This document shows positions 7,065 to 22,067 of a stretch of DNA of 22,067 nucleotides, in pieces. Below the pieces are notes generated by a model that was not told where the DNA came from, did not search any database, and saw nothing but the letters and a program-made list of their open reading frames with translations. Made by a program: the position numbers and the translations under genes. Source of the DNA: a virus; IMG/VR virus record IMGVR_UViG_3300022845_000025, positions 1-22,067 of that record; one strand, written 5' to 3'. The stretch's first letter is position 1. Each line of letters opens with the position of its first letter.

Positions 7065-7082
7065 TGGTGGTCGCTCAAGTAA
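7047..7082. repeat. Inverted repeat 3' of the coat gene
   Basis: A perfect 8-bp inverted repeat, TTACTTGA (7047-7054) and TCAAGTAA (7075-7082), separated by 20 bases, in the 111-base gap between the coat gene stop and the next gene. In neither direction is it followed by a T-run outside the hairpin, so it is not a standard terminator. It could modulate expression of downstream genes relative to the coat gene. Confidence 0.35.
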
Positions 7083-7138
7083 CGATAACGCGGGTTGGCA
7101 TCACCTCACTAGGAGGCAAGATGATGAGCTACCCAACT

Positions 7139-8275: not shown

Positions 8276-8310
8276 TTGATTCGGTTGGTTTTACCGGATC
8301 TCAGGCCCAC

Positions 8311-9075
8311 TTAGACAACTGTGATCTCCCCTGATGCGATCTTCTCAACATCTACGTCACCCTGCGCCATTGATTGACTAGAAACTGTTTTTTGTCCCGA
8401 TCTGCCAGTAGCACCAAACTTGGTACCCTCCGGTTTACGATCCTCAAAGTAGTCTCCTGATTCATCAGACTTGCGGAGCTTCACGAATAGCTTATCAGGA
8501 CCCGCATAGTTCGCGCCGTCATAGACGGGGTTTCCTAGCTCATCCTTAAAGTAAAAATCGTCCCGCTCCTCATCGAAGGTGAACATCGTAGCAACCGATT
8601 GGATAAACTCAGGGTGTTGCCCTTTAAATATCGTCCTCAGTCTCGACTCCTTGACTCCGGCCTCCGGTGCTGCTTTGTGAATTCGATTCATCAGCCTATC
8701 ACTTCGTCCGGAGACTACCTGATCAGTTAACGTATCGACTTTTGCTTGGAGGGGAGTAACAAGTTCGCCTATGACCTGTTGCTTGATTCTGTTGAGTAAC
8801 TCGGGATCGTCTTTTGAGACAGGTAAATTCTTGTCATCAAGCGATATCCCCCGGGCAGTCGCAATCGAGCGGAAATGCTCATCGTCAGATCCAAGTGCAG
8901 CGATTTTTCCTTTGTACTCGGTTTCTGTGGCTTTCTTCTGCGAGTTTTTAGCGTTTTCAATCGCTGTGTTAAAACTTGCTTGAGGAGTTACCACCAAACC
9001 CTGCTCAAAGGTCACGTTTGCATCTTCGTGATCTACTTCGTGAGTCTGATCTCCAATCTTGATTGTGATTTTCAT
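8311..9075 (-). CDS. Capsid scaffold-like protein
   Basis: A 254-residue, charged, mainly helical protein immediately upstream of the coat gene, the standard place of a scaffold that guides procapsid assembly and is not kept in the mature head. It has a short beta-rich start (MKITIKIGDQTHEVD), a helical central part rich in Lys, Glu and Gln (35-135), and a long polar C-terminal tail (GRSGQKTVSSQSMAQGD at about 225-241). A globular segment with FTFDEERDDFYFKDELGNPVYDG lies at about 165-190. A minor capsid protein is an alternative. The start at 9075 lies about 65 bases downstream of the repeated leader motif. Confidence 0.7.
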   Translation of the reverse strand: MKITIKIGDQTHEVDHEDANVTFEQGLVVTPQASFNTAIENAKNSQKKATETEYKGKIAALGSDDEHFRSIATARGISLDDKNLPVSKDDPELLNRIKQQVIGELVTPLQAKVDTLTDQVVSGRSDRLMNRIHKAAPEAGVKESRLRTIFKGQHPEFIQSVATMFTFDEERDDFYFKDELGNPVYDGANYAGPDKLFVKLRKSDESGDYFEDRKPEGTKFGATGRSGQKTVSSQSMAQGDVDVEKIASGEITVV

Positions 9076-9139
9076 ACCTGAGGTTGTTGTCTAGGGGCTT
9101 TCAGTAACGCCCACACCGTTCGTTTTTTGGGTAGTATAC

Positions 9140-9169
9140 CCTCGTTTTTTTGCCTTTGAACGTAAAAGG
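9140..9169 (-). repeat. Leader repeat, copy 2 (upstream of scaffold gene)
   Basis: Minus-strand reading is CCTTTT, two bases, GTTCAA, four bases, then AAAAAAACGAGG, matching the copy at 7037-7064. It lies about 65 bases before the scaffold start and adjoins a small 5-bp hairpin (GGGTA TAC TACCC, 9129-9141). A weaker third match (CCTTTT, GTTTAC, AAAAAAC) is at 18031-18060 upstream of the QueE gene. Confidence 0.45.
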
Positions 9170-9204
9170 CTCTCCAAGAGGTCAGGAGCGGGTTGAATCT
9201 CCGC

Positions 9205-9232
9205 GCCGGGGCAATGTTTCCACTACCCCGGC
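9205..9232 (-). ncRNA. GAAA-tetraloop hairpin in the scaffold-gene leader
   Basis: On minus-strand RNA the arms GCCGGGGUAGUG and CAUUGCCCCGGC pair over 12 bp, with a U-G and a G-U wobble, closed by a GAAA tetraloop of the stable GNRA type. On the plus strand both wobbles would become C-A mismatches and the loop would be UUUC, so the structure is meant for leftward RNA. No U-tract follows, so it is not an ordinary terminator. It sits in the roughly 230-base leader between the upstream terminator and the scaffold gene. Candidates: mRNA stabiliser, processing site, or protein-binding element. Confidence 0.6.
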
Positions 9233-9307
9233 TTAGAGAAAATCGCCAATGAGCGACCACCGGATTGAACGTATGGACAAAATCAGTCTTTATCAAGTGG
9301 GTCTATT

Positions 9308-9344
9308 AAAAAAAGGGGAACCGCGAATAAACGAGGCTCCCCTT
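9308..9344 (-). terminator. Rho-independent terminator of the packaging/portal operon
   Basis: Minus-strand arms AAGGGGAGCC and GGTTCCCCTT form a 10-bp stem with one G-U wobble, 12-base loop, followed by a T-run ending in TTAATAG. The wobble is valid only in leftward RNA (it would be A-C on the plus strand), which fixes the direction. It lies 30 bases after the secreted-protein gene and separates the terminase-portal genes from the coat-tail genes. Confidence 0.85.
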
Positions 9345-9373
9345 GAATCTGTATTTCCTTTTGGCTCTGTAAG

Positions 9374-9748
9374 TTAACAGAGCATAGGCAGTCGTACCGC
9401 TTCAGCTGTGTTAAAACTGTCCTTATGCTGCGTTAAGAGGTCAGGATCTTGATGTTTTTCACCTCCACTTCGAGGTTCCAAATATCTTTGTTCGTAGTGG
9501 TTGACGGGGGTTCGGAATGCCGGGCCTTCGAATGGAGTATCGGCGCAGATTTCAAGATTCATCAGTAATCCGGAGTCCTGTAATTGAACAGCCGTTGCCG
9601 GAGCAAGGAATTCAATAGCAGGGGCCGGGGTCATATCTCCGACCGTGAAAGCGATTTGCCCTCGGTCGGTTGCTTCTGATACTTGAATATCTAGCACCCC
9701 CATCAAAAGAACGGAAAACATCAGAACGGTAAAAACACGTTTTAACAT
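9374..9748 (-). CDS. Small exported protein with signal peptide, unknown function
   Basis: A 124-residue protein. The frame opens at a TTG (9760) but the ATG at 9748 gives a textbook signal peptide: MLKR, a hydrophobic core VFTVLMFSVLLMGVL, then an Ala-ending cleavage region (DIQVSEA) near residue 26. The mature part is about 98 residues, polar, without further membrane segments; two Cys residues remain (CADTPF and the final residue). It is the last gene before the terminator at 9308-9344. Exported phage proteins can serve superinfection exclusion, lysis control or envelope changes, but nothing visible chooses between these. It interrupts the usual portal-to-scaffold order, as accessory 'moron' genes do. 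Confidence 0.6.
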   Translation of the reverse strand: MLKRVFTVLMFSVLLMGVLDIQVSEATDRGQIAFTVGDMTPAPAIEFLAPATAVQLQDSGLLMNLEICADTPFEGPAFRTPVNHYEQRYLEPRSGGEKHQDPDLLTQHKDSFNTAEAVRLPMLC

Positions 9749-9824
9749 TTGAGCGTACAATTTTGGTTCATAGCTATTCGGCGACTTGCCTAGGTGTTAA
9801 GAGTAGGAAATCCAGAGGAAAGAA

Positions 9825-9995
9825 TCAACCATTAAAATCGACAAAGGCATCGTGGGCTATCTGCGTTGCCTGTTCTACTTGGATCCGAATATTGTCCGTC
9901 TTGATCTTGGAGACTGGTTTTGCGTTAGGCCGATTATTGACCGCCTCCATCGCCAATCTCACCTCCTCGGCAGGTGGTACCCGGGGGACTATCAA
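9825..9995 (-). pseudogene. Second copy of the MuF-like protein C-terminus (56 codons)
   Basis: In this frame a TTG at 9995, overlapping the metallopeptidase stop as TTGA, is followed by VPRVPPAEEVRLAMEAV and ends in AHDAFVDFNG with a TGA stop at 9825-9827. It matches the last 54 or so residues of the MuF-like protein ending at 10383, with only about five substitutions, while the DNA differs at about 34 of 160 positions. Most changes are therefore silent. An upstream in-frame TAA shortly before rules out a longer gene. It may be a relic of a former gene end or a small translated peptide re-initiated after the metallopeptidase stop. Silent-change dominance shows both copies were constrained as protein for much of their history. 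Confidence 0.75.
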
Positions 9996-10544
9996 GTTCC
10001 GGCCAATGCTTCCCGCGTGATAGAGGGGAGTTTACGGTATTCCTTGAATTGCAGGATTTCATCCAACAGGAATTCTGCTATCCGGCAGAGCATTTCCTGA
10101 TCCTTTGACCGAACCGATACACCGATGTGATCACAAATCTGCCACGCCATATGAATACATTCGTGCGCTATCGTCGGGATCGGTGTCTTTTTGGGGAGTA
10201 ACATAACCATCCACCCCCTCCCGTCCGGATCTGTGAGGTACAGAGCACACCCTTTCGTCATTGTGAAATTTAGGACTATGCCTTTTTCCTTGAGCCATTC
10301 TTGCAGTTCATATCGTCCGTGCCAAATATGAACATAACTTGTGACAAGGGGAACTGAAATTCGTATATCGGGAATGTATTCACTATCCATTAAAATCCAC
10401 ATAGGCATCGTGGGCAATCTGCGTTGCTTGCTCGACTTGAATCCGGATATTGTCGGTCTTGATCTTCGAAACAGGTTTTGCGCCGGGTCGCGTATTCACG
10501 GCCTCCATAGCTTTTCTCACTTCCTCTGCACCGGGAACGCGGGG
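9831..10544. repeat. Direct duplication of the MuF 3' coding region flanking the metallopeptidase gene
   Basis: Bases from about 9831 to 9990 align with about 10385 to 10544, starting with the shared ATTAAAATC and staying in register without gaps over 160 positions, with 34 differences (79 percent identity). The metallopeptidase gene occupies the space between the two copies. No transposase or inverted terminal repeats accompany it. Confidence 0.85.
9992..10390 (-). CDS. Zinc metallopeptidase-like protein (HExxH)
   Basis: A 132-residue protein with HECIH at residues 76-80, an exact HExxH zinc-peptidase motif preceded by the hydrophobic PTIA and followed by a helix. A later acidic residue in KDQEMLCRIAEFLLDEI (97-111) could be the third metal ligand, as in small phage proteins with HExxH then a helix bearing Glu. 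The ATG at 10390 is chosen because it overlaps the MuF stop (TAG at 10383-10385) by eight bases; a longer in-frame start at 10417 would run deeper into MuF. Its gene is flanked by two copies of the MuF 3' end, which suggests acquisition. Possible targets are head proteins or host factors; activity is unproven. Confidence 0.68.
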   Translation of the reverse strand: MDSEYIPDIRISVPLVTSYVHIWHGRYELQEWLKEKGIVLNFTMTKGCALYLTDPDGRGWMVMLLPKKTPIPTIAHECIHMAWQICDHIGVSVRSKDQEMLCRIAEFLLDEILQFKEYRKLPSITREALAGT

Positions 10545-11492
10545 TATGACCGGGGTTCGTTTCGGGTCCCCCCAGTTCTCAGGCGGTCGCATTATTCGGG
10601 TGACGTAGTCCTGACAGTGCGGGTGGGGCAGCGAGGGAACCGTAGCCGGGTAGTATATACCGGGGCCGAATCCGTGAAGATTCAATTCCTTTAGTCCGTC
10701 ACAAACATCAGGAGCGTGGCCCATTGTAGCGTGTTGTGCCGATACGTGCCATTGCAACAGGTCTACCATTGGGGATTCGTGAGAAGCGAGAGCATCGGCT
10801 TCGTGGTACATCGAGTTCATTTCGTGGATAAGGGTCCGCTTTGCGTTCGTGTACATACCCCGGCCCGGCGTAGCGATATCGTCTTTCGCCCGGCCCGCCC
10901 GAGTAATTCCCCGGCGTACTGCCTCGCCACGCGCCCCGAGGTTTCGTAGCGCCTTCTCAACGTGTGGATGCTGAGACACCTGCCTTAGAAGTTGATCGGA
11001 CGCTTCCCTTGATGGCCTTCCAATATTCTTACGGATATAGTGATTGATCTCTTTTGCTCCGAGATCAGTCCACCCCTCGATAAGTCCACCCTCATTGCCC
11101 GAGAAACTGCCCCGGCGTGACTGTGCATACTTCGTCACGTTCGATTTGACGCCCGCTAATCCCGCAAGGGCAATACTCACCCCCGCTTCCGCGATAGCCT
11201 CCGTTGCGCCCCTAACGTGTGCGTCCACAGCCGTACTTACTGCCATAGAGGAACCTCTTCTCACTATGACCTGCGTGAGCCTCGAGTATTCAGCTATGAT
11301 CGCAATAATTCGGAGCGACAGAACCTCGGCTTGCTTTTTCGTGAGCTTCTCCACGTCCGGGAACGCGGTCTCAATCTCAACGAGCATATCGACATACGCC
11401 TTCGTGATGGCTCCAACGGCCCCGAGGATTCGGAGGTGAAGGTGTAACCGGGCCTCTTCTACAAGTTTCTCGTATCTCTCTTTCCAAGCCAT
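10383..11492 (-). CDS. MuF / SPP1 gp7-like head morphogenesis protein
   Basis: A 369-residue protein directly after the portal gene. Minor head proteins of the Mu gpF / SPP1 gp7 group follow the portal, are packaged in the capsid, and carry a late motif. Here residues about 245-298 read WHVSAQHATMGHAPDVCDGL, then a Gly-Pro-x-x-Tyr-x-P turn, then SLPHPHCQDYVTRI, the expected His/Cys arrangement. The N-terminal half is alpha-helical and Ala-rich (AVGAITKAYVDMLVEIE, AEAGVSIALAGLAGVK). The final 55 residues are duplicated downstream at 9825-9995. There is a one-base gap to the portal stop, so the two genes are likely co-translated. Confidence 0.85.
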   Translation of the reverse strand: MAWKERYEKLVEEARLHLHLRILGAVGAITKAYVDMLVEIETAFPDVEKLTKKQAEVLSLRIIAIIAEYSRLTQVIVRRGSSMAVSTAVDAHVRGATEAIAEAGVSIALAGLAGVKSNVTKYAQSRRGSFSGNEGGLIEGWTDLGAKEINHYIRKNIGRPSREASDQLLRQVSQHPHVEKALRNLGARGEAVRRGITRAGRAKDDIATPGRGMYTNAKRTLIHEMNSMYHEADALASHESPMVDLLQWHVSAQHATMGHAPDVCDGLKELNLHGFGPGIYYPATVPSLPHPHCQDYVTRIMRPPENWGDPKRTPVIPRVPGAEEVRKAMEAVNTRPGAKPVSKIKTDNIRIQVEQATQIAHDAYVDFNG

Positions 11493-11493
11493 A

Positions 11494-13125
11494 TTAAACG
11501 ACTACCCCAAACTCTTCTGCTTGTGCTTTAAACTGTGCTTCTCGCTCAAGTCCGGTCTTGGCGAGTTCGATTAGTGCTTTTTCCCCTTCCTCATCGAGTG
11601 GATATCCGTTCTCTCTGAGTGACGTGATTGCGAGCTGTGCTATTGTCTCGGGATCAATAGGTAGATAGCCCCCGGGAACGTGACGGCGAACTAATCGGTC
11701 AATACGATCCTCGATATCAACTCCTGAGAAGTCAGTAGACCGTGTTACTCGAGTACCGCCCCATAAATCCGGTTGATCCGGGAAGTAGACCTGTTCAATA
11801 GCGTAAAATGCTTGGTTCTCGAACTCATCGGCAAACCGGGTGATCAGGGTTAGGATCGCCTCGACCCCTGAACGCTCTTCTCGGGCAATCTCGGTTGCTG
11901 TCTGCTCTTTGGCCTTGTCTCCCATATCAAGGAAAAAAGTCGTGTAGAAATCAGACCGGAATTCCTTGATAACTTCGTGCTTGACTTGAGCGGGTTCCAT
12001 CGGTGGTGCTGCAAACTTACTGCCCGCCCCGGGAACGAGGTTTGAACCTGCTTTTAGCTGCTTCTTGATCTCGCTCCATAGCTGCTCATCGAACGCCCCG
12101 TCCTCACGGTTGATAACGTCTGCAAAGAGCTTGGGGAAACAGGCAATCCAAAGCAGGAATTCGAGCGTATTCTCTTGATTAAACAGCGAGTTTGCTCTCC
12201 GGGCCTGAATGTAGCCGAGATTCGCGGGAAGTGATAAATCGACAGTAAAAACGGGTGGTACCGGGATTCCCGATTCTGTTTTCCACGTAAACCCGGCCTG
12301 AGAGTATGGCGTGAACGGAGTCACTACTTCCGGGATATCCTTCTTTTCGTTTATTCGCCATACCTGATAGCCGTTTACCTCGTAAATCCTGTAATGCAAC
12401 TCAGGGTTAGGCTCTTCCATAAAGGAATCAGAAAGGTCTACCATTTCCATCAGCATCACGCCGATCAGAGAACCACTTTCTTTTGAGTAGATTTTACGGG
12501 GGATATATTGCGGATCAATTAGCTTTATGGTGGCCTCTCTGATCGTCTGTTTCTTGCCATCCTCAGAGGTCACAGTCTCAGGCCCCTCAACGAGAAACGA
12601 TAGCGTTGAGTAGCCAATAGCTTTAAGGGTGGCACGTTGGAATAGCGTCCTCCAATTCATTCCCTTACCATCAGCATCTTCCCATAGTTTATGCAGGATT
12701 GAATCAGGGGCGCTCGGGTCTCCAAGACCCTCCCCATCATCTTCTTTTGAGTAGGTACGGGCTTCGTCTTTCTGATTCGCCCACGTCATTCCCGCCAATG
12801 AAGTTATCGCCCGGGCGAGGTGAGGAGAAAACTGTGCTAATCTTACCCGTTCGGCATATGCGTCTGTTGATTCCCCTTGAGACCGGGCTATCAGGTACTT
12901 TTCGATTTTATCATCGTCAAGAACGAGGCCCTCAATATGATCGTATACGTATTCGTACTTGTGCGCGTTTTTCTTGTGCTCCGGGGAGCGATACTTGAGC
13001 CAGTTCTTATCACCGGACCCTTTCGACATAAGACCAAGAAGAGACCCAACGGCTGCCTCATCCCGAGCATTTCCCCGGGACGTTCCTAGATTGGGGTTCG
13101 ACGTTGATTGAGGGTTTTTTGGCAT
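11494..13125 (-). CDS. Portal protein, DUF4055-like
   Basis: A 543-residue protein between the large terminase and the MuF-like gene. Portals form the dodecameric vertex ring through which DNA enters. Visible portal-like features: an early YEYVYDHIEGLVLDDDKIEK, then SPHLARAITSLAGMTWANQ (the common F/S-N-hydrophobic-R-hydrophobic-L-G-hydrophobic pattern), NWRTLFQRATLKAIGYSTLS, and a long helix ANLGYIQARRANSLFNQENT. The C-terminal third has FFLDMGDKAKEQTATEIARE, with the EQTATEI motif commonly seen in portals, and a later LDEEGEKALIELAKTGLE helix. The DUF4055 label is by general resemblance. The start ATG at 13125 lies 12 bases after the terminase stop. Confidence 0.88.
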   Translation of the reverse strand: MPKNPQSTSNPNLGTSRGNARDEAAVGSLLGLMSKGSGDKNWLKYRSPEHKKNAHKYEYVYDHIEGLVLDDDKIEKYLIARSQGESTDAYAERVRLAQFSPHLARAITSLAGMTWANQKDEARTYSKEDDGEGLGDPSAPDSILHKLWEDADGKGMNWRTLFQRATLKAIGYSTLSFLVEGPETVTSEDGKKQTIREATIKLIDPQYIPRKIYSKESGSLIGVMLMEMVDLSDSFMEEPNPELHYRIYEVNGYQVWRINEKKDIPEVVTPFTPYSQAGFTWKTESGIPVPPVFTVDLSLPANLGYIQARRANSLFNQENTLEFLLWIACFPKLFADVINREDGAFDEQLWSEIKKQLKAGSNLVPGAGSKFAAPPMEPAQVKHEVIKEFRSDFYTTFFLDMGDKAKEQTATEIAREERSGVEAILTLITRFADEFENQAFYAIEQVYFPDQPDLWGGTRVTRSTDFSGVDIEDRIDRLVRRHVPGGYLPIDPETIAQLAITSLRENGYPLDEEGEKALIELAKTGLEREAQFKAQAEEFGVVV

Positions 13126-13137
13126 CGGTGTGACCTG

Positions 13138-14670
13138 CTAGTATGTGACGGTTTCGCCGTCTGATTCAAAAGTGGTTCGTCGTAAGTGTTTCCAAGACCA
13201 ATACGCAGCATCCATAAGATCGTACGGCTTGAGCACTAGGAATCGGCGGGCAGCCCGTTCCAGTAGTTCGTGAGTACCTCGAACGTGGAATATACGACCG
13301 TGTTCATAGTCAACAAGCATCTTTCCGGATCTGTGGCCTTTCGAGCCGTCTCCACCGCCTTTCGCGTACTTGTAAGCGGGTCTCCGTGAGCCTTTAGGTA
13401 TTAGGTCGTTCTTGACTAGGTGATCCCACGCACGTTTGTAGACCGACTTCCAAGCAAGACCGCCCTGATCCGTCTCCACCCCGAAAGATTGGGCCCCAAT
13501 TTCAACGGCCTTTATTAAGCCTCGCCTGAATGCCTCTTCCGGGCTTGCTATCTGTTCCCACGACCAAAGGCGGTAAATATCTCCCTTTTCGTCGATTCCG
13601 TCAGCTTGGATTCCCATTGAATCCGACTTCTTTGTTTCGGAAATAGATGGATCGATCCAAACGGTAGTCCTGACGAGCGATTTCATAAGAGCCTCGGACC
13701 AGTCCACTAACTGGAACTCAACGTGCCCATACATACCGCCCGTAATATTGTGGATATCGTGCTGCGCTTCCCGAAGGAACGTGGTATAACCCCACGTATC
13801 AATAGCGTTTTGGCAATGGGTAATTCCCTGCCCCTTCCAAGTCGGGGTTCCTCGAGTCACGAAGTACCGGAGTTTACCGTTCTCATCGAGCTCTTGAGCG
13901 AACTCAGCATCAAGCAGGGCCGGGACCGGGCCGATCTCCTTCCTGTACCCCATCATATCCGACTTGCGGGTGATGATCTGATCCATAACCGAATCGGCGT
14001 GGATCGGGTTCTGAATAAACATAACGTGGGCTTGCTCCGATCCCATCGGCAGAATATCGGAGGTCAACATATCGAGCTTGCGAAGTACCGTTGCTGCCGA
14101 CTGAGTCCGTGTGTCCACATCATCAATAATAATCAAGTCGGGTCTTAAATCATCATCTTTAAAACCACGTTTCCCGCCATCTAGACCAAATGCAACGAAG
14201 TAGGCCCCGCCGTCAGTAGCTACTCGAGACTGCGACCAAGAGCCTTTAGTGTGTTCATAGAGTCGGGGCTTCGCGTGGAGGGGAAAGAACTCTTTTACGT
14301 TGTCAGACTCGAGCTTGCGCTTTATTGAACTTAGATGGTCGTTTGCCTGAGAGGTGGTGCCACAAACGTAAGCGACAACCTTCTTCTTACCTGTTACCGT
14401 CAGAGCGACAGCAGCAGCCTCGGCAGTCGTTGACTTACCTCCCCCTCGAGCCAATGCAAAAAGGATGTTCTGCATTGGGTCCTGTTCCGGGGTACCAATC
14501 TTCCACGCCCACTCCCAAAACTCGGCGTGGTGGTCAGCGAAGCCGTGATAGACCGTCTTAGGAAACATTTCATTTAGCCAAGCCTCCCAATCATCAGGGA
14601 GCGACTCTTCTCGGGTCTCTTGTTTAAGCCCGTCCGCTAATGTTTCCCAAAACCGTTTTCTCAATGGCAT
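13138..14670 (-). CDS. Terminase large subunit (ATPase-nuclease packaging motor)
   Basis: A 510-residue protein from the ATG at 14670 (an upstream TTG at 14706 lengthens it by 12 residues but overlaps the preceding gene further). ATPase: Walker A ARGGGKST at 74-81 and Walker B LIIIDDVD at 179-186, with the coupling region VMFIQNP at about 216-222. Nuclease: WIDPSISETKKSD (D340 first metal ligand) and a later DQGGLAWKSVY region. It pumps DNA into the procapsid through the portal, driven by ATP, and cuts the concatemer. It overlaps the end of the HGG small-terminase gene by 47 bases. Confidence 0.95.
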   Translation of the reverse strand: MPLRKRFWETLADGLKQETREESLPDDWEAWLNEMFPKTVYHGFADHHAEFWEWAWKIGTPEQDPMQNILFALARGGGKSTTAEAAAVALTVTGKKKVVAYVCGTTSQANDHLSSIKRKLESDNVKEFFPLHAKPRLYEHTKGSWSQSRVATDGGAYFVAFGLDGGKRGFKDDDLRPDLIIIDDVDTRTQSAATVLRKLDMLTSDILPMGSEQAHVMFIQNPIHADSVMDQIITRKSDMMGYRKEIGPVPALLDAEFAQELDENGKLRYFVTRGTPTWKGQGITHCQNAIDTWGYTTFLREAQHDIHNITGGMYGHVEFQLVDWSEALMKSLVRTTVWIDPSISETKKSDSMGIQADGIDEKGDIYRLWSWEQIASPEEAFRRGLIKAVEIGAQSFGVETDQGGLAWKSVYKRAWDHLVKNDLIPKGSRRPAYKYAKGGGDGSKGHRSGKMLVDYEHGRIFHVRGTHELLERAARRFLVLKPYDLMDAAYWSWKHLRRTTFESDGETVTY

Positions 14671-15292
14671 CGAGGATTTTTGTAAGAACCCGTCTATCAC
14701 GTACAAACTCTCTGAGAATGGCTATAAACCTGTTAATGAGGAACATCATTTCTTCAACTGAAACGACTTTTTCTGCAATCGAATTCGTCTTGTTTTGCGC
14801 TTCTATGAGCGTCTTTTTATGTGCTTGCAGCTTCGTGATCTGCTCATACTTCACGGCCTTGACTGCGCCAAGCCGGATGATGTTCATAATCTTCTTCATT
14901 GCCACGCCTTTGGATATCGTCCCGGCCTCCCCTTGTTTCCGGAGATTATCCATACGGAGCCACAACTCCGGCAGGGTGCTTTCATCTTCATCCGTTGAAA
15001 ACACCTCGACTATTTGCATATCAACGATGGCAATATCGTCAAGCAATGATAACGGTGCTTCGCTCGAGAGAGCGTCAAGGTAACGTTGGAGCGAAGATCC
15101 CTTGAGGTACTTAGAGTATTTACCGTGTTTGTAGTTCGCTGATGCTACGCCTCTAGGTGTGGCCCCGCCGTGAAATCGACAACGACCATTCGCAAGCCCG
15201 GGATTCTTACAGGGCTTGCCTGATCCTTTCGTTTTCGCTCCACAGAACTCCGTGTCAGAGACAGGAATAGGGGCCGTTTTCGACTTGTCCAT
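14624..15292 (-). CDS. Small-terminase-like protein with HGG zinc motif
   Basis: A 222-residue protein just before the large terminase. The N-terminus carries FCGAKTKGSGKPCKNPG and GRCRFHGGATPRG (C17, C28, C38, H41), a Cys/His set likely to bind zinc, followed by the HGG-[AS]-TP-G motif common in phage proteins in the TerS position. The rest is helical: residues 65-150 and 175-215 look like coiled-coil oligomerisation segments, with LDDIAIVDMQIVEV and LINRFIAILREFVRDRRV. A TerS would recognise pac or cos sites and form a ring. The direct DNA-binding evidence is only the motif class, so 'small-terminase-like' is used. Confidence 0.75.
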   Translation of the reverse strand: MDKSKTAPIPVSDTEFCGAKTKGSGKPCKNPGLANGRCRFHGGATPRGVASANYKHGKYSKYLKGSSLQRYLDALSSEAPLSLLDDIAIVDMQIVEVFSTDEDESTLPELWLRMDNLRKQGEAGTISKGVAMKKIMNIIRLGAVKAVKYEQITKLQAHKKTLIEAQNKTNSIAEKVVSVEEMMFLINRFIAILREFVRDRRVLTKILDAIEKTVLGNISGRA

Positions 15293-15307
15293 AGGGTTGC
15301 TATCGTT

Positions 15308-15970
15308 CTAAGGGGTTTTTTCGCCTGATTCTTTCTCAAAGTCTTTTCGGAGCCGGATCATTCGGGCGGTCTCCCAAGCTTGGCGGTACTCTGTTTCCTC
15401 GAATAGTTTAGAGAATCCGGTAACGTGCTTGAGTTTGAGGATCTCTTCTGCCGACATACCTAGATTCTCGCATACCTCAGAATCCGTCATTCCGTTCTCG
15501 AGCATTTGGAAAACCATATTCCCCATTCCTGTTACGGAGTGTTCTCCCCGGGCACGGTTGTGTCTGACTGTTGCTGCCATCCGCTCGTTGATATCCTTCT
15601 TTAGTACCACGATTGGCAATCTGCCGTTGTTGCGCTCGAGGATATCCTTTTGGGTCTTTGCCACGAAGTACCTATGAAACCCGTCGATGATTACGTATTT
15701 CTTTTTTTCCTCGTCATAAATCGTCACAATCGGTTGCGTGTAGCCATCTGCCTTGATGGACTTGTACAGCAGGCTCATTTCTTTTCGGGCTACTGCGTTG
15801 GGGTTGTAGTCGTTAGGCTCAACCTTTTCTATTGGGACCCAACGCACCAAGTCGATGGGTTGCTGAATAGGGGATAAAGAGTGCAGGAGTTCCCTTAGTT
15901 CGTTGAGGAGTTCAGCCTGACTATGTGAGCTTCGTACGTAGTCGGTTATGGCCTTTTTGATATCGCTCAT
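15308..15970 (-). CDS. ParB-fold protein with C-terminal HTH (IbrB-like)
   Basis: A 220-residue protein. After a helical start, residues 44-145 form a ParB/sulfiredoxin-like domain: WVPIEKVEPNDYNPNAV, the core IIDGFHRYFVAK (94-105) and VRHNRARGEH (135-144). This matches ParB-domain and IbrB-like co-activator proteins. A likely helix-turn-helix follows (NGMTDSEVCENLGMSAEEIL). ParB-fold proteins bind DNA and use CTP or ATP in several families, but there is no ParA here and no partition system is implied. In phages they may regulate late genes, aid packaging or modify DNA. It overlaps the 95-residue gene upstream by ATGA. Confidence 0.8.
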   Translation of the reverse strand: MSDIKKAITDYVRSSHSQAELLNELRELLHSLSPIQQPIDLVRWVPIEKVEPNDYNPNAVARKEMSLLYKSIKADGYTQPIVTIYDEEKKKYVIIDGFHRYFVAKTQKDILERNNGRLPIVVLKKDINERMAATVRHNRARGEHSVTGMGNMVFQMLENGMTDSEVCENLGMSAEEILKLKHVTGFSKLFEETEYRQAWETARMIRLRKDFEKESGEKTP

Positions 15971-16254
15971 ATGCTTGTTGCTTTCGGTATTGGGGTTACA
16001 GGTATCGAAATGTTGATCTGCGGACCACCAAAATAGGGTCGGTTTATTATTTTGTGCGCGTTTTTAGCAATTAACGAGCGTAATCCGTTGGCGGTGTCGG
16101 TTGCGAATTGATCCCACTCCGCGATAGTTGATTCCCTGCGTCTGCCCGTATTTTTGTCGAGAAACCAAATTCCGGAGCCGATGTAGCCCCGCATTTGCCG
16201 TCGAATAGCCTTTAGGTTTTCCCGCTCTATCCTGTATGGGTCCAGTTTGCTCAT
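15967..16254 (-). CDS. Small conserved-looking protein of unknown function
   Basis: A 95-residue basic protein, MSKLDPYRIERENLKAIRRQ at the start, then GSGIWFLDKNTGRRRESTIAEWDQFATD and a Pro/Ile-rich tail (ISIPVTPIPK). No motif was recognised. Its ATG overlaps the stop of the 53-residue gene and its stop overlaps the ParB-like start, both by ATGA, so it is coupled to both neighbours and is almost certainly translated. The Arg-rich first half and its place among DNA-binding genes allow, but do not show, a nucleic-acid role. Confidence 0.65.
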   Translation of the reverse strand: MSKLDPYRIERENLKAIRRQMRGYIGSGIWFLDKNTGRRRESTIAEWDQFATDTANGLRSLIAKNAHKIINRPYFGGPQINISIPVTPIPKATSI

Positions 16255-16412
16255 TTCTTTTTTGATTTCTTGTTTAGCCGGGCCTGTTCCTTCACCTGCA
16301 GGGCGGTGACTTTATCGTTTTCGAATGGGTGTTGAACCGGGTCAACCTTTAGGCCCATTGCCATCATTTGCGCCCTGTCTCCTAGTGTTGCCAAAAGCAT
16401 ATACCGCATCAT
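16251..16412 (-). CDS. Small 53-residue protein with coupled start and stop
   Basis: A short frame that fills the gap between two accepted genes. The ATG at 16412 overlaps the preceding stop (ATGA) and its TGA at 16251-16253 overlaps the next ATG (ATGA), so it fits the translational chain at both ends. It starts MMRYMLLATLGDRAQMMAMG and ends in a Lys-rich tail (ARLNKKSKKK). Met-rich and basic, without known motifs. The double ATGA arrangement is the main evidence that it is real. Confidence 0.65.
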   Translation of the reverse strand: MMRYMLLATLGDRAQMMAMGLKVDPVQHPFENDKVTALQVKEQARLNKKSKKK

Positions 16413-16717
16413 TTTATTCGCTCCCTGTTTATGATTTCAATATCGCTTGGAGGCTTCATCCCTGTCCAGTATTTGTAGCCGTCTAGGTAGAGGTGTGGCT
16501 TTATCTCTCCCTTAAAGTCCTCGAGTGTACCGTGATCCCGGGTGTACTGAATCACCGCGTTCCATCTGTCCCGTTTCCAAGAGTTCATCTTGCTACGAAC
16601 GAGATACCAATGGGGCCACTTTGCCATCGTCTTGGCGAAGTACCAAGTATCGTGTTCGAGCCACTTGGCAACCTCCTCCGGGGTCATTTTATCATCGTCT
16701 ACTGATAGCTTGCTCAT
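16409..16717 (-). CDS. Phage protein with YFAKTM-PHWYLVR motif
   Basis: A 102-residue protein. The ATG at 16717 is chosen (MSKLSVDDDKMTPEEVAKWL) because it overlaps the preceding stop by ATGA; the longer frame to 16753 would run into that gene. Residues 22-40 read TWYFAKTMAKWPHWYLVRSK, a form of the Y-FAKTMP-PH-Y-LR motif that recurs in small uncharacterised phage and prophage proteins; the biochemical role of that group is not known to me. A C-terminal YLDGYKYWTGM segment also looks conserved. Aromatic and basic character suggests binding of nucleic acid or a nucleotide. Confidence 0.7.
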   Translation of the reverse strand: MSKLSVDDDKMTPEEVAKWLEHDTWYFAKTMAKWPHWYLVRSKMNSWKRDRWNAVIQYTRDHGTLEDFKGEIKPHLYLDGYKYWTGMKPPSDIEIINRERIK

Positions 16718-17250
16718 TCTTTCACCTTGTATTCGTGTCCACACTCGGGGCATATAACATCCCGGTAGGTCATATCACCAACCATTTTAAGGGCTAGTTC
16801 GCGGGCTTGTCTTTGGATATCCTCCTCGGTCACGGTTTGTCCGGAGAACTGGGGTTCGCTTGTTGGGCTAAACTCCGGCCCGAAGGCTTGCGGAGCCTCA
16901 ACTCCCCAGTCAATTAGGTCCTCTTTCTCCCATTCGTTTGCTAATTGGTCCCAGTCCCATTCCCCGGGGTGGGTGTTATCCTTGATGATGAACTCCCGGA
17001 CTTTCTCCGGGCTAAGATCGGAGGACCTGATGAATGGTACCGCCTTCATCTTTAGTTTCAGGACTGCCCGGAGCCTCATGTTCCCACCGAGGACCACGTT
17101 GTTTTCATCAATAACGAACGGCCTCAACTCAAGCATTTCAGGGAAACCCCGGACGGACTCGACCAACTCCTTGAACTTTGATTCCGTTATGGTTCGCGGG
17201 TTATTGGGGTTCGGCGTAAGGTCCTTTGGGTTAATTTTTTCGAGTGGCAT
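16714..17250 (-). CDS. ParB-like domain protein with C-terminal Cys pair
   Basis: A 178-residue protein. LTPNPNNPRTI (11-21), VVLGGNMRLRAVLKLKM (52-68) and a helical VREFIIKDN region (84-92) are the classic ParB/Srx order: N-P-x-N-P-R, then GG-x-R-hydrophobic-x-A. The C-terminal VICPECGHEYKVKE (166-178) is a zinc-knuckle-like Cys-x2-Cys with only one cysteine pair, so a metal site would need a partner subunit. The N-terminal half resembles ParB domains that accompany DNA adenine methyltransferases, but no methyltransferase is fused or adjacent. It follows the QueE-like gene by four bases and precedes the YFAKTM gene with ATGA. Confidence 0.8.
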   Translation of the reverse strand: MPLEKINPKDLTPNPNNPRTITESKFKELVESVRGFPEMLELRPFVIDENNVVLGGNMRLRAVLKLKMKAVPFIRSSDLSPEKVREFIIKDNTHPGEWDWDQLANEWEKEDLIDWGVEAPQAFGPEFSPTSEPQFSGQTVTEEDIQRQARELALKMVGDMTYRDVICPECGHEYKVKE

Positions 17251-17254
17251 AGGT

Positions 17255-18007
17255 CTATTTTATCCTGTTCATTATCCGCACAAAATGCGGGTTACAGTTG
17301 TGTTCCCTAGTGAGACTCTCGGACAGCATTTCCTCTGTCCCATCTAGGTTGTGGATGAAAACTAGGGGTAGACTTTCGATTGGGTTTTCTGATCCCTGCT
17401 CCTGTTGGTACTCGGTCTCGATCTGTGTGCTTGGGTGAGCCAGTAGCCTTGAAAGTACGCCCGGGAAATCCTGGGGTTTATAATCAGGCATCGCGAAGAT
17501 GGCCTCGTTTGCTATCTCGAGACGAATATCTTTATCAATAATCTTGGGGGAAACCGTTATCCAGTTTGGCCATACCGCCTCCTTGTTCTCGGGAAGATAC
17601 CGCTCGGACATTGAAATGCTTCCGTTGGTTTCAAGCAGTACATAGAACCCGGCTGTACGGAGCGTTTCAACTAGGTTCGGGTCAATCTCGCTCAGGGGTT
17701 CTCCTCCTGTTAAAACGACAAACTTAATATGCTTCCCGGCCTCTTCTTTGACTTGGGCTAATATCGTTGAGGCGGTCAAGAACCTTGATCCCTGCTTCGT
17801 GAAGTCGGCGTTGCACCAAAGCGGACATAATGCCCCTGTTTTCTCTGCGTATCGTGTTCGGTCGCGGTCTGCTCCGTTCCACATATTGCAGCCGATAAAG
17901 GAGATGATAACGGCCTTTCTTCCCGAGTGATACCCGGTGCCATAAACCCCGGACTTGATAGATTTTACTCGGTAGGACATTACCGAGTTGGGGTTATTAC
18001 TGCTCAT
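17255..18007 (-). CDS. queE: 7-carboxy-7-deazaguanine synthase-like radical SAM enzyme
   Basis: A 250-residue radical-SAM protein of QueE type. QueE converts 6-carboxytetrahydropterin to 7-carboxy-7-deazaguanine on the route to preQ0 and queuosine. Seen: GYHSGRKAVIISFIGCNMWN with C40, then CPLWCNADF with C61 and C65 (C-x20-C-x3-C instead of the classical radical SAM CX3CX2C; other QueE enzymes have spaced variants), VVLTGGEPL at 97-105, LLETNGS near 125-131, and ITVSPK. Phages use this route to place 7-deazaguanines in DNA against host nucleases, but no QueC, QueD, FolE or DpdA is in the window. First gene of the leftward operon; its leader holds a weak third leader repeat. Confidence 0.85.
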   Translation of the reverse strand: MSSNNPNSVMSYRVKSIKSGVYGTGYHSGRKAVIISFIGCNMWNGADRDRTRYAEKTGALCPLWCNADFTKQGSRFLTASTILAQVKEEAGKHIKFVVLTGGEPLSEIDPNLVETLRTAGFYVLLETNGSISMSERYLPENKEAVWPNWITVSPKIIDKDIRLEIANEAIFAMPDYKPQDFPGVLSRLLAHPSTQIETEYQQEQGSENPIESLPLVFIHNLDGTEEMLSESLTREHNCNPHFVRIMNRIK

Positions 18008-18027
18008 AATGGGTAGCTAGTTTTAAT

Positions 18028-18068
18028 GTTGGTTTTTTAACTTACGGTAAACGGAAAAGGAAACCAAC
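18028..18068. repeat. Inverted repeat in the divergent control region
   Basis: GTTGGTTT (18028-18035) and AAACCAAC (18061-18068) form a perfect 8-bp inverted repeat with a 25-base spacer that contains the weak third leader repeat. It lies between the QueE start and the rightward promoter, where an operator for the leftward genes would be expected. It is not followed by a T-run in either direction. Confidence 0.4.
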
Positions 18069-18070
18069 CC

Positions 18071-18099
18071 TTGCATATGCCGTATACCGGAACTATATT
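18071..18099 (+). promoter_or_regulatory. Early rightward promoter, sigma70-like
   Basis: TTGCAT at 18071-18076 (4 of 6 to TTGACA), 17 bases, then TATATT at 18094-18099 (5 of 6 to TATAAT). Transcription would begin near 18106, giving a 110-base leader before the ATG at 18220. GCATATGC (18073-18080) is a perfect palindrome overlapping the -35 edge and could be an operator. The 9-mer CGTATACCG within the spacer recurs upstream of the gene at 19867. Confidence 0.6.
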
Positions 18100-18110
18100 A
18101 TCAGAGGAAC

Positions 18111-18135
18111 AGGGTAATTGTTGCGGAGTTACCCT
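18111..18135 (+). ncRNA. Leader hairpin 1 of the early operon
   Basis: AGGGTAA (18111-18117) and TTACCCT (18129-18135) form a perfect 7-bp stem with the 11-base loop TTGTTGCGGAG, starting about five bases after the predicted transcription start. The loop base run GTTGCGG (18120-18126) is fully complementary to CCGCAAC in the loop of hairpin 2. The palindrome could also serve as a DNA operator. Confidence 0.55.
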
Positions 18136-18163
18136 TTCCTTGAAACCTCCATCGGTTTTCTTT

Positions 18164-18213
18164 AGTCCTGTCTCGGTCGGCCCGCAACGCCACCGGGACG
18201 GGACTTTCTTTTT
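18164..18213 (+). terminator. Leader hairpin 2: intrinsic terminator / attenuator before the early genes
   Basis: Arms AGTCCTGTCTCGGT (18164-18177) and ACCGGGACGGGACT (18192-18205) pair over 14 bp with two wobbles that are U-G only in rightward RNA. A 14-base loop separates them and TTCTTTTT follows. This is a good Rho-independent terminator placed about seven bases before the first early ATG, so readthrough must be controlled. Since nothing is encoded upstream on this strand in the leader, an attenuation role is likelier than a simple gene end. Confidence 0.75.
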
Positions 18214-18219
18214 GCGACA

Positions 18220-19026
18220 ATGATTATAAGAGTCAGAAAGCGGGTTGCGAACTACGTTGTGGTCGATCAAGAAACGGCCCGGCTAAAAAGCATATCATTT
18301 AAGGCCCGGGGGTTGTGGCTCCTCATAATGAGTTTCCCCGACAACTGGGAATCCAACCCCGAACACCTCGCTAAACAGTCTGGAAAAGACGGACTCACCG
18401 CCGTTCGATCTGCACTAAAAGAACTTCAATCAGTCGGCCTTGCCCGGCTCATAAAACAGAAGGATCCAAGCGGGCAGTTTACAGGATCTCATTGGGACGT
18501 TTACGAAACACCGGACCTAAACACCGGGATGCAGGAAACCTCCATCCCGGTCCGAGATGCAGGTTTCCCGGAAGTCGGGAAACCCGAGAGTCGGGAAACC
18601 CTCGCTATAAGAAGTAACAACTCAGAAGAAAGAATTATCTCTCTAAGAGAGCCGACCCATTCGGGTTCATTGAAGGAGGACAGGAAAGTACACCCTGCAT
18701 TATCAATCTATGTTGACGTTTGCGGATTCGATCCCCCTCTTTATTTCTCGGACCTGATTATTCAGAAGGTCGGAATAGCCCCCAAAGGTTTAGAGCATTG
18801 GCGGGCAGTCTGTGAGACTTGGGTTGCCACGCCCGGTTGGAACGAGCGTCAGGTTAAGAAGATGATCGACGATCTTGATAACCAACGAGAAGAGAAGCCC
18901 AAGCGGACGTTCAGCAAGGACTCAGGTTCAGATCGTAAGCGAGGCAAACTTGGTACCGCCTCAAATCCCGGAAGGCCCGGGGGCTACATTCAAGGCACAG
19001 GCCCACTTCCATTTATAAAAAAATGA
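18220..19026 (+). CDS. Winged-helix replication-type DNA-binding protein
   Basis: A 268-residue protein, first gene of the rightward early block. Residues 1-90 (VANYVVVDQETARLKSISFKARGLWLLIMSFPDNWE, then EHLAKQSGKDGLTAVRSALKELQSVGLARLI, read as separate parts) form a helix-turn-helix or winged-helix domain of the type in phage replication initiators and primosome proteins: fixed-order helices with a KARGLW-L turn and a GLTAVR-AL-EL-S-GL recognition helix. The middle (95-165) is Ser/Gly/Pro-rich, likely disordered. Residues 170-225 (ALSIYVDVCGFDPPLYFSDL; HWRAVCETWVATPGWN) form a second helical region like the DnaD-type C-terminal part. The Lys/Arg- and Gly-rich tail follows. It probably binds the phage origin and loads replication proteins. 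Confidence 0.75.
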   Translation: MIIRVRKRVANYVVVDQETARLKSISFKARGLWLLIMSFPDNWESNPEHLAKQSGKDGLTAVRSALKELQSVGLARLIKQKDPSGQFTGSHWDVYETPDLNTGMQETSIPVRDAGFPEVGKPESRETLAIRSNNSEERIISLREPTHSGSLKEDRKVHPALSIYVDVCGFDPPLYFSDLIIQKVGIAPKGLEHWRAVCETWVATPGWNERQVKKMIDDLDNQREEKPKRTFSKDSGSDRKRGKLGTASNPGRPGGYIQGTGPLPFIKK

Positions 19027-19664
19027 TTTCGACCCACGACTTAAAAATCGACCTTGAACACTACCGGGCAGTTGAGGCTCGATTAAAACCTTTTGAGTTT
19101 CGGATTATGGATCGGGACTACAAGGTCGGGGATCGGATTTGCCTCCGCGCATATGACCGGGGACTATCAGAATATATTCAGGGACTCGGCATCATCTACG
19201 GCGAGATCACCTACATACTCGATCTCGATACCGTCACGTTCGCCAAGTTTCCTCCGGGGTTCGGAATACTCGGAATTTATTACGCGCCACTAACGAAGCC
19301 TCAAGGGGGAAATCCGATCAGTAGCTTAATTACAGAAGATCCGGATGAGTTCCTTAAAAAGATGACAGGCAAAACGCTCAAGGAGTTCGATCAAGGAGCA
19401 AGTAAACAATTGAGGTCCCAACTTCTCAGGGAGGATATCAACTCTCGTATATTTTACTCCCGCTCAGAAATGACTTCCCTTATTGCTAATTATAACATCC
19501 CGGGAAATGCTTTTTTCAGAAAGGCCGTTCCATTTGAAATGGTGGACCCAAGAAATTACACCGAGGGAGAAAAACTGATGCTATCAAAAGGCAGCAAGAC
19601 ACCTGTATTTGTTAACAGGTACAAAATTACAGAGTCTTGGATCAGGGGGTATCTACTAAAATAA
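19023..19664 (+). CDS. DUF3850 (ASCH/PUA-like) protein with unassigned C-terminal extension
   Basis: A 213-residue protein. Residues 1-95 match DUF3850: HDLKIDLEHYRAVEARLKPF, FRIMDRDYKVGDRICLR, ITYIL, and FGILGIYYAPL. The domain is ASCH/PUA-like, a fold that binds RNA or modified bases, and is commonly about 75-100 residues. Here about 115 residues are added, including TGKTLKEFDQGASKQLRSQL and a late KTPVFVNRYKITESWIRGYL. That extension is not recognised. Its ATG overlaps the previous gene by four bases (ATGA), so the two are coupled. The known proteins of this domain lack an established biochemical activity, so the function is open. Confidence 0.8.
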   Translation: MISTHDLKIDLEHYRAVEARLKPFEFRIMDRDYKVGDRICLRAYDRGLSEYIQGLGIIYGEITYILDLDTVTFAKFPPGFGILGIYYAPLTKPQGGNPISSLITEDPDEFLKKMTGKTLKEFDQGASKQLRSQLLREDINSRIFYSRSEMTSLIANYNIPGNAFFRKAVPFEMVDPRNYTEGEKLMLSKGSKTPVFVNRYKITESWIRGYLLK

Positions 19665-19700
19665 AAAAACCCGGGTGAGGAGACCGACCAACTCACCCGG
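19663..19700 (-). terminator. Leftward-facing terminator-like hairpin after the DUF3850 gene
   Basis: CCGGGTGAG (19671-19679) and CTCACCCGG (19692-19700) pair perfectly over 9 bp. Read leftward, the stem is followed after one G by TTTTTTT (19669-19663), a good intrinsic terminator for minus-strand RNA; read rightward it is followed by ATTCGAG with no U-tract. Nothing leftward is encoded above it in the window, so it may stop antisense transcription or protect the rightward mRNA end. Confidence 0.6.
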
Positions 19701-19866
19701 ATTCGAGAGACACGAGAACCTTTCGATTAACGATATCAAAAACTAACAACTAAAGATCGCCGAGTCAATACGGAAAAAACTACCATAACCTTCCGCTTTA
19801 CGGAACCTTACGTATACCGTACCGTCTAATCTATAAACAGGCCCCTATCAATAAAGAGACACCAAA
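19701..19866 (+). promoter_or_regulatory. Intergenic region upstream of the 129-residue gene
   Basis: About 165 non-coding bases. CGTATACCG (19811-19819) repeats a 9-mer found in the promoter spacer at 18081-18089. TATAAA at 19832-19837 could be a -10 box, with only a weak -35 (TTACGT, 18-base spacing). A small inverted repeat TTCCG/CGGAA lies at 19791-19805. An early promoter is plausible here. Confidence 0.4.
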
Positions 19867-20256
19867 ATGAGCAAGTTCAGCACCACCGTAAACTGCTTGG
19901 GACAGGAAATAACCGTCGAGTCAGCCACCTTCCTTGAACACTTCAAGGCCCTAGCCGGGATCTCGGACCTGAATCGTGATTACCGCTACTTCCACAAACG
20001 AACGGATGCCCTAATTAAGGACCGTTGGAGTTTGGCCCCGGTCAATAATCGGCCCGCGAAAGCCCCTTCACCAAATATCTATTTGTCTCACTCGGTCATA
20101 ACGGAGAAAGGTAAAAAAGGGGAGTATTTCAAACTGAGGGAGTTTCACACGCAATGCAATCAAACGCTCGGGCAGCTTAACGAGGAAAATCCAATAATCG
20201 GACTGTTTCCAAAGGCTGACGATGGTTTTTATAATCCAGAGGAGCAAACAGCGTGA
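19867..20256 (+). CDS. Early protein of unknown function (129 residues)
   Basis: The first gene after the second rightward control region. The N-terminus is beta-rich and reads MSKFSTTVNCLGQEITVESA; the rest is mixed, with a basic run KGKKGEYFKLREFHTQ near 80-95 and an acidic end. No domain was recognised. It begins at an ATG with AAAGAGAC upstream as a weak ribosome binding sequence. Its TGA stop overlaps the GTG start of the VRR-NUC gene, so it is likely translated together with the nuclease and may share its early role in DNA metabolism. Confidence 0.65.
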   Translation: MSKFSTTVNCLGQEITVESATFLEHFKALAGISDLNRDYRYFHKRTDALIKDRWSLAPVNNRPAKAPSPNIYLSHSVITEKGKKGEYFKLREFHTQCNQTLGQLNEENPIIGLFPKADDGFYNPEEQTA

Positions 20257-20666
20257 GCCGACCCAACCTTGAAGAACACCGCATTCAAAAGTCTTTTTTG
20301 GAGTGGTGCCACTACCAACGGCACAGCTTTCCAACGCTTGATCTTTTATATGCGATTCCAAACGGAGGGAATCGATCCAAAAGCGAGGCCGGGAGGTTCA
20401 AGGCCGAGGGAGTCAAGGCCGGAATGCCGGACCTGTGCCTGCCCGTACCGTCAGGTAGTTACTCGGCCCTATACGTAGAGGTGAAAACCAATAAGGGTCG
20501 GCTCCGCGATTCTCAGAAGGACAGGATCGACCTTTTGCGCCAAGCAGGGAATGCCGTAGTGGTGTGCCGGGACCTAGATTCTTTTATCGCCGTGATTCTT
20601 GCTTATTTCAAACTTAACTACCTGCGTGACGAACAACTCTTTAACGTTCCAATAGAGGAAATGTGA
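20253..20666 (+). CDS. VRR-NUC domain nuclease
   Basis: A 137-residue protein starting at a GTG that overlaps the preceding TGA (GTGA). It shows the stand-alone phage VRR-NUC pattern: an early Glu (EEHRIQKSFLEWC), YAIPNGGNRSKSEAG, RFKAEGVKAGMPDLCLPVP with D60, then YVEVKTNKGRLRDSQ with E76 and K78, and AGNAVVVCRDLDSFIAVILAYF. The D-(x)n-E-x-K order gives the PD-(D/E)xK active site. VRR-NUC enzymes act as structure-selective DNA nucleases; small phage versions are often near replication or recombination genes, as here. The stop overlaps the following GTG. Confidence 0.88.
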   Translation: MSRPNLEEHRIQKSFLEWCHYQRHSFPTLDLLYAIPNGGNRSKSEAGRFKAEGVKAGMPDLCLPVPSGSYSALYVEVKTNKGRLRDSQKDRIDLLRQAGNAVVVCRDLDSFIAVILAYFKLNYLRDEQLFNVPIEEM

Positions 20667-21073
20667 TAATGTTCAAAACCGTATACCCAACGACTGCTCA
20701 CCTGATTAAACAAGCTAGGGGCCGTGTTCACGATAAATCACTTGCTGAACGGCCGCAACCCGAGTTTTTCATTATTGACGATATCGACGAATCTTGGACA
20801 CCTACCCCGGCTGACCGGGCGAAGATGTTTCACTCTAAAAATCCGGAGGTTATGAAAAGGATCGTGGGGTTATGCCGGAAGTTCAGGAAAGACGGTAACG
20901 AGGGACAGTGGGGGATCAAGGGGGCCTTCGAGCAACTGCGATATATGGCCTCTGAAAACGGGCGGTATGATGATTTTAAACTCAACAACTCATACACGGC
21001 TTGGTACTCCCGGGAGATAATGAGGCTAAATCCGGATCTTGGGGAAATTTTCAAAACGAGAGAACAGCGATGA
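20663..21073 (+). CDS. Phage protein with NN-Y-A-YSR-IM motif, unknown function
   Basis: A 136-residue protein starting at GTG (20663, GTGA overlap with the nuclease stop) or, two codons later, at ATG 20669. The last 55 residues (WGIKGAFEQLRYMAS, then FKLNNSYTAWYSREIMRLNP, ending in DLGEIFKTREQR) match a recurrent phage pattern: a helix with E-LR, then a YKLNNN-Y-A-YAR-LM-x-P-E helix and a FxTR end. The function of that group is not known to me. The N-terminal half includes a disordered acidic IDDIDESWTPTPAD segment. It is coupled to neighbours on both sides. Confidence 0.72.
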   Translation: MIMFKTVYPTTAHLIKQARGRVHDKSLAERPQPEFFIIDDIDESWTPTPADRAKMFHSKNPEVMKRIVGLCRKFRKDGNEGQWGIKGAFEQLRYMASENGRYDDFKLNNSYTAWYSREIMRLNPDLGEIFKTREQR

Positions 21074-21731: not shown

Positions 21732-21767
21732 TTTTAACCACCCCTAGTACGGGAAGAGAGGACTACG

Positions 21768-22067
21768 ATGAAAAACACCGAACTAATTGAAAAATACAAT
21801 GAGGGCGAACGGTCTTTTAGACTAGCCGACCTGTCTGGAGCCAGCCTGTCTGGAGCCAACCTGTCTGGAGCCAACCTGAGGGGAGCCAACCTGTCTAGAG
21901 CCAACCTGTCTAGAGCCAACCTGTATGGAGCCGACCTGTATGGAGCCGACCTGTCTGGAGCCGACCTGAGGGGAGCCAACCTGTCTAGAGCCAACCTGTA
22001 TGGAGCCGACCTGTATGGAGCCGACCTGTCTGGAGCCGACCTGTCTGGAGCCAACCTGTATGGAGCC
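21768..22067 (+). CDS. Pentapeptide-repeat protein, partial (runs off window end)
   Basis: An ATG at 21768, preceded by AGAGAGG at a good spacing, opens a frame that runs to the window end (100 codons visible). After a short [19 protein letters not shown] lead it consists of 16 near-perfect A-[DN]-L-x-x units, read as [20 protein letters not shown] and so on, with Tyr, Ser or Arg at variable positions. Such proteins fold as a right-handed quadrilateral beta-helix; some (Qnr, MfpA class) mimic DNA and bind gyrase, others have unknown roles. A 70-base DNA stretch is exactly repeated at 75-base offset, a sign of recent expansion. Final length cannot be told. Confidence 0.9.
21899..22043 (+). repeat. 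Direct 75-bp repeat inside the pentapeptide gene
   Basis: Bases 21899-21968 recur without change at 21974-22043. They cover four 15-base units plus 10 bases, equal to protein units [15 protein letters not shown] and ADLSG. The offset keeps the frame (five units). Confidence 0.9.

Follow-up and report, generated by a model that had tools for sequence, protein, structure and literature searches.

To our knowledge, the control of early transcription is poorly known for phages beyond a few models, and the attenuation or antitermination devices made of RNA only that have been described amount to a handful. In the immunity systems of phages P4 (CI) and P1 and P7 (c4), a phage leader RNA with internal complementary segments controls early transcription, the processed RNA targeting rho-dependent termination or translation. 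Helices formed between loops occur in regulatory RNAs such as ColE1 RNAI and RNAII, whose 7-nt loops pair fully, and in the purine and other kissing-loop riboswitches. The put RNA of phage HK022 consists of two stem-loops directly behind an early promoter, and acts in cis without a dedicated protein (PMC9378689). In plasmid pIP501, where the leader of the replication-initiator gene bears a terminator, read-through is set by loop-loop contacts between RNAII and RNAIII (PMC4981023).

The leader analysed here comes from an uncultured tailed phage represented by a 22-kb fragment (22,067 nt; this whole stretch of DNA is called the window) and has two hairpins with complementary loops, the second of them a terminator. 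It resembles HK022 put (putL and putR) in position and number of hairpins only, a layout analogy: put carries a triplex, binds RNA polymerase, with antitermination acting through the beta' zinc-binding domain, and is not itself a terminator, whereas here hairpin 2 is the terminator and the loops pair. The likeness to put drawn in an earlier, sequence-only reading of this DNA therefore holds for layout but goes no further: when the put sites were located in NC_002166 and compared with the leader, sequence matches were at chance level and the put loops were not complementary. An initiator leader with a terminator and a loop-loop logic is also found in the rep attenuation of pIP501 (and of pT181-type plasmids), but the pIP501 partner is a separate antisense RNA from the other strand, while here both loops are in one leader. 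Unlike the P4 CI and P1/P7 c4 RNAs, the target here would be the loop of an intrinsic terminator, and the element has no Rfam match. With ColE1 and the purine riboswitches it shares the loop-loop helix, but there is neither the junction nor the ligand pocket of a riboswitch and, in contrast to both ColE1 and the kissing-loop riboswitches, one kissing partner is the terminator loop itself.

Results

Two hairpins with complementary loops precede the first early gene

The window encodes P22-like coat, terminase and ParB-like genes, with leftward genes at 1429-18007 and rightward early genes beginning at 18220, the first of which is an HTH_36-type replication initiator. The divergent gap of 212 bp contains a weak promoter-like sequence and the leader, with these features:

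18071..18099, + strand: promoter-like TTGCAT-17-TATATT (from sequence; matches 3/6 and 5/6, below the cut-off of the consensus scan; boxes of this kind are similarly placed in homologous leaders)
18104..18141, + strand: hairpin 1 (HP1), at the 5' end, 15 bp and a single bulge (−17.2 kcal/mol when folded by itself as RNA)
18120..18126, + strand: HP1 loop GTTGCGG, 7 nt, complementary to the terminator loop at 7/7 positions (from sequence; the same in at least 27 leaders)
18142..18159, + strand: weak spacer hairpin in the linker, 6 bp (−4.1 kcal/mol; absent as a shared feature elsewhere in the family)
18164..18205, + strand: hairpin 2 (HP2), stem of the intrinsic terminator, 17 bp interrupted by a bulged C (−29.2 kcal/mol when folded by itself)
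18182..18188, + strand: terminator loop CCGCAAC, 7 nt (from sequence; same loop in homologous terminators)
18206..18213, + strand: terminator T-run TTCTTTTT (from sequence)
18220..19026, + strand: first early gene, HTH_36-type replication initiator (phrog_4707, E=2.5e-18; HTH_36)

The sequence-only reading had described a sigma70-like promoter, a 7-bp hairpin at 18111-18135 and a 14-bp terminator at 18164-18213. The promoter-like sequence is present, but is weaker than had been claimed and was not listed by a consensus scan; the perfect arms of the first hairpin exist as the core of a larger one, and the terminator with its T-run is real, the fold extending its stem to 17 bp at 18164-18205. 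The exact complementarity of GTTGCGG and CCGCAAC was borne out, both loops being exactly 7 nt with 7/7 Watson-Crick pairs, and the isolated duplex was calculated at −10.2 kcal/mol. HP2 has the form of an intrinsic terminator, a GC-rich stem followed directly by a T-run.

Folding of the complete leader (18104-18213) gave −52 kcal/mol (z = −5.1), an energy that none of 200 dinucleotide shuffles matched (mean −34.4, sd 3.5). Transcription is predicted to start at about 18105-18106, the first bases of HP1, and the initiator ATG lies 6 nt past the T-run. Alignments with homologs begin at residue 2, which makes the start codon at 18220 secure; a transcript initiated at the upstream promoter therefore has to cross the terminator. 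When folding was simulated by stepwise transcription, HP1 was complete before any HP2 existed and the leader ended as HP1 plus HP2, with no competing antiterminator helix found in the leader. Pairing of HP1 with the terminator arms was considered as an antiterminator and rejected, the heteroduplex (−21 kcal/mol) losing to both hairpins. With regard to leader-peptide attenuation, short ORF frames overlap the leader. At 18028-18068, just ahead of the −35 region, GTTGGTTT...AAACCAAC form a perfect inverted repeat of 8 bp, possibly an operator.

Within the window, HP1/HP2 is the only pair of strong hairpins (both at or below −12 kcal/mol) with 7 or more complementary loop bases, and comparable pairs numbered 0 in 60 shuffled genomes. 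Such pairs are rare in related phage DNA yet present, chiefly in GC-rich coding DNA, and because of these occasional matches the single case in the window is suggestive only and not decisive.

The two-hairpin leader recurs in phages with unrelated stems

Scans with terminase, ParB, QueE and the initiator found a single close relative over the leader, IMGVR_UViG_3300022821_001131, which is the same virus; the element was absent from the DNA examined of coat-protein relatives. As the leader of IMGVR_UViG_3300022821_001131 is identical it provides no covariation, and IMG/VR was therefore searched for the loop pair by pattern (GTTGCGG-gap-CCGCAAC, without and with a T-run; at least 120 matches listed for each). 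Two loci from this search had both motif copies as the loops of strong hairpins with unrelated stems. Among the matches listed, both loops were held in strong hairpins (at or below −6 kcal/mol, loop of 8 nt or less) at 19 of 106 distinct T-run sites, compared with a mean of 0.45 when the 20-nt arms were shuffled and 0 sites when the hairpin test was slid by 60 nt. Single hairpins at the listed T-run sites were likewise more frequent than with shuffled arms (HP1 29 vs 5.7, HP2 42 vs 6.8). Slightly looser limits gave at least 27 leaders, the window's virus included, in at least 15 clusters of stem sequence. Nearly all cells pair at the loop-closing positions of these 27 leaders, with several different pair types; as the list was chosen by hairpin energy, it is the shuffle test and not this pair count that carries weight. 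At terminators the canonical loop pair was found 32 times compared with at most 2 for any other loop 6-mer, a difference that the design of the search has enlarged. In alignment, the stems of leaders with 7-nt and 8-nt loops fall into different registers, which stands in the way of one covariance model for all.

The order in the family is promoter box, HP1 at or near the 5' end, linker, terminator hairpin, T-run and start codon, with promoter boxes of either the TAnnTTTG (Bacteroidota) type or the sigma70 type. Seven members have TATATTTG or TAACTTTG as their box, exactly 17 nt before the HP1 loop, and, given this fixed position, HP1 would comprise about the first transcribed bases. The window element has the HP1 and T-run terminator with fully complementary 7-nt loops that define the family, an early gene directly downstream and a promoter box directly upstream, the box being weak in the window. 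In one subgroup (L226, L252, L264, L269, L294, L299, L307, L316, L328 and L333) HP2 contains a conserved internal loop rich in purines, approximately GAGTA/GAAA, which is sarcin-ricin-like and is separated from the terminator loop by about three base pairs; loops of 8 nt, with one more base on the 5' side, are frequent in the same subgroup.

Replication initiators or DnaD-like loaders lie downstream of the leader in the window, L195/L300 (as the second gene), L243, L254, L259 and L127; ERF in L231; VapE/primase in L333; and helicases in L295 and L297. NUMOD4/HNH genes follow the leaders of L252, L269, L294, L307 and L309, and a GIY-YIG or other homing endonuclease follows those of L260 and L264. 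On their predicted products, the genes behind family leaders are early or mobile.

Taken together, these comparisons support a two-hairpin leader, with its architecture, stem pairing and loop complementarity, that recurs across stem-unrelated phage leaders. They refute the reading of the element as an ordinary terminator with a chance loop match, which is now hardly credible: a 7-base loop match over many windows is not astronomically rare, but the 19 sites observed among the matches listed, where 0.45 were expected, have the same architecture, with a fixed promoter position and an early-gene context.

Alternative loop pairs

That the loops are identical in the 27 members follows from their use in the search and is no evidence of pairing; loop-free scans were therefore run, in which terminators with any complementary upstream loop were sought in 688 kb of member phages and then in approximately 4 Mb of loci. 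A strict intergenic mask dropped true members from the arbitrary-loop scan and was replaced. A second leader in the L284 phage has the loops GTAGTGC/GCACTAC, complementary at 7/7 positions, on stems of −15.3 and −14.6 kcal/mol, with a TATCTTTG box, a T7 run and an ATG that opens an HTH_36 initiator. This pair differs from the canonical one by three compensatory double changes and is a strong case of an alternative loop pair. A second leader in the L301 phage (CGGTCAG/CTGACCG, with a good sigma70 promoter, SD-ATG and a weak HP1) and the leader of L246 (GGGTCAG/CTGACCC, with TATAAT, terminator and ATG) are possible further alternatives, as supporting cases only. When a promoter box, a terminator and an ATG were all required, 7-bp loop pairs other than the canonical one numbered 2 vs 0, 0 and 0 for three control relations; once the promoter and ATG requirement was lifted, complementary loops of non-canonical sequence were not above the controls (5 vs 3 and 6 at 7 or more bases).

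The sequence-only reading had put forward loop covariation in related phages as a check, with stems kept while loops change uncompensated as the pattern that would speak against it. The stems were found to change completely while the loops stay complementary, and the opposite pattern was not seen. Of that reading's overall proposal, an early-operon leader with two hairpins, loop pairing and a terminator, the architecture has thus been found again in at least 15 stem-unrelated clusters, with at least one element having different complementary loops, so that comparison supports both structure and loop pairing, while an effect on termination is what this architecture would suggest.

The alternative pairs bear on two further explanations. 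GTTGCGG and its inverted copy could be DNA operators that bind a phage repressor or initiator, the hairpins being a by-product of palindromic sites, and in the window the loops are indeed inverted copies with GGT...ACC flanks, adjoining an initiator gene. In other members the flanks are unrelated, yet each loop is closed by its own stem; a T-run follows the second hairpin, the centre distances of 48-62 bp have no evident helical phasing, and the alternative pairs change both copies together. This explanation is disfavoured already, and we regard it as highly improbable. The leader could instead be a put-like RNA, in which the two hairpins, joined to each other by the loop contact, bind RNA polymerase so that early-operon terminators are ignored, the loops being conserved because the polymerase reads them. 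Two hairpins at the same site as putL, directly after an early promoter (PMC9378689), would fit, and a conserved host protein that recognises the loops could account for one pair being shared by leaders with unrelated stems. We nevertheless consider this quite improbable, given that the HK022 put sites have neither complementary loops nor similarity to the leader, that the second hairpin here is itself a terminator with a T-run, and that alternative loop pairs speak against a fixed sequence read by a protein.

The leader among isolates, bacterial genomes and known RNA families

Among phage isolates we found no relative of the window leader, the L127 leader or the L195 leader. BLAST matches of two other leaders were short pieces, in one case mostly of an endonuclease gene and in the other isolated stretches of 26-32 bases. 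No convincing element was present in six isolate phages of Bacteroidota hosts, searched whole or in large part. Among 398 bacterial genomes (phylum of G005) the pattern was found in 4, by eye as chance occurrences, at a rate similar to that of the reversed-pattern control, from which the element looks viral in this sample.

Searching the window region with the Rfam 15 covariance models at E up to 1 gave only an unrelated sub-threshold match at 17900-17960, and no family matched at the element in 18 member loci. The L234 phage, which also carries the leader element, has a match to the int-alpA RNA family (RF02996) at 9418-9483. In the literature searched, which lay outside most subscription journals, no description of this leader element was found, and the leader family is apparently undescribed.

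Discussion

A 5' hairpin that may capture the terminator loop

The window leader probably belongs to a so far undescribed family of attenuators in early phage leaders, whose 5' hairpin would kiss the loop of a terminator; the effect on termination and its direction we infer. The HP1 loop (GUUGCGG) and the HP2 loop (CCGCAAC) would form a loop-loop helix of 7 bp, with the intrinsic terminator (HP2 and its U-run) placed about 20 nt after HP1 and directly before the first early gene. HP1 would already be complete when RNA polymerase comes to make the terminator's 3' arm, so that the HP1 loop could capture CCGCAAC first. Closing a stem around a loop already held in a 7-bp helix may be slower, or the stem may be remodelled, which would favour read-through into the early operon. 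Kissing leaves every base of the terminator stem unoccupied, so any effect has to be kinetic or steric, and on/off action is not obvious. The sign may also be the opposite, with kissing stabilising the terminator. By rough estimate, full coaxial kissing in cis would need the spacer hairpin open and the linker nearly stretched (approximately 115 of 126 Å), so the loops may touch only in part, at an earlier stage of transcription, or between leaders in trans.

A terminated leader would bear both loops and could bind in trans to newly made ones, in competition with the contact in cis; such binding would restore termination as copies build up, and replication-initiator and endonuclease genes would thereby be under a dosage brake. 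Feedback of this kind would fit the many replication-initiator targets and resembles pIP501 control. The regulation might also lie mainly in trans, a short terminated RNA accumulating and kissing leaders while they are transcribed from the same phage or from a co-infecting one, in the manner of plasmid antisense RNAs such as those of pIP501 or of P4/P1-type immunity. The terminated product would be compact (about 110 nt) with both loops on board, replication-initiator genes are common targets, and shared loops in unrelated phages would permit cross-talk; in pIP501, RNAIII attenuates repR transcription via two loop pairs (PMC4981023). A TATAAT box does face the leader in the window, but family-wide an antisense promoter box directly behind the T-run is present in 9 of the 27 listed members vs approximately 17% of background segments, which is not a clear enrichment and does not support a general antisense transcript. 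Regulation mainly in trans appears rather unlikely. The box in the window belongs to a promoter-like sequence on the minus strand (TTCGCA-17-TATAAT, 18223-18251), which would yield RNA antisense to the whole leader.

Short, without a dedicated protein, with programmable loop pairs and present in unrelated phages, the leader would define a new regulatory RNA family; lying before replication initiators and homing endonucleases, the element could serve as an orthogonal transcription switch. As a tentative extension, there may be a new class of RNA switch across phages of several bacterial groups, with a 5'-terminal hairpin that captures the terminator loop ahead of its closure, interchangeable loop pairs and orthogonal copies per phage, in which terminated leaders would act as a copy-number sensor in trans, possibly between co-infecting phages.

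Other features of the window

Among the genes of 1429-21073, Shine-Dalgarno sequences are scarce, a hint that initiation in the host is SD-poor. At 19663-19700 a 9-bp hairpin (CCGGGTGAG...CTCACCCGG) preceded by an A-run reads as a canonical intrinsic terminator of the minus strand, with no obvious leftward gene there. Approximately 650 bp at 9326-9979 are present in the window and in L011 and missing from the near-identical contigs L009 and L010. Two predicted minus-strand ORFs, 9825-9995 and 10383-11492, have a C-terminal segment in common, as if the end of a gene had been duplicated. At 21740-22067, on the + strand, tandem repeats of the GCCAACCTG type read as a pentapeptide-repeat protein that runs off the window, and align out of register with L002.
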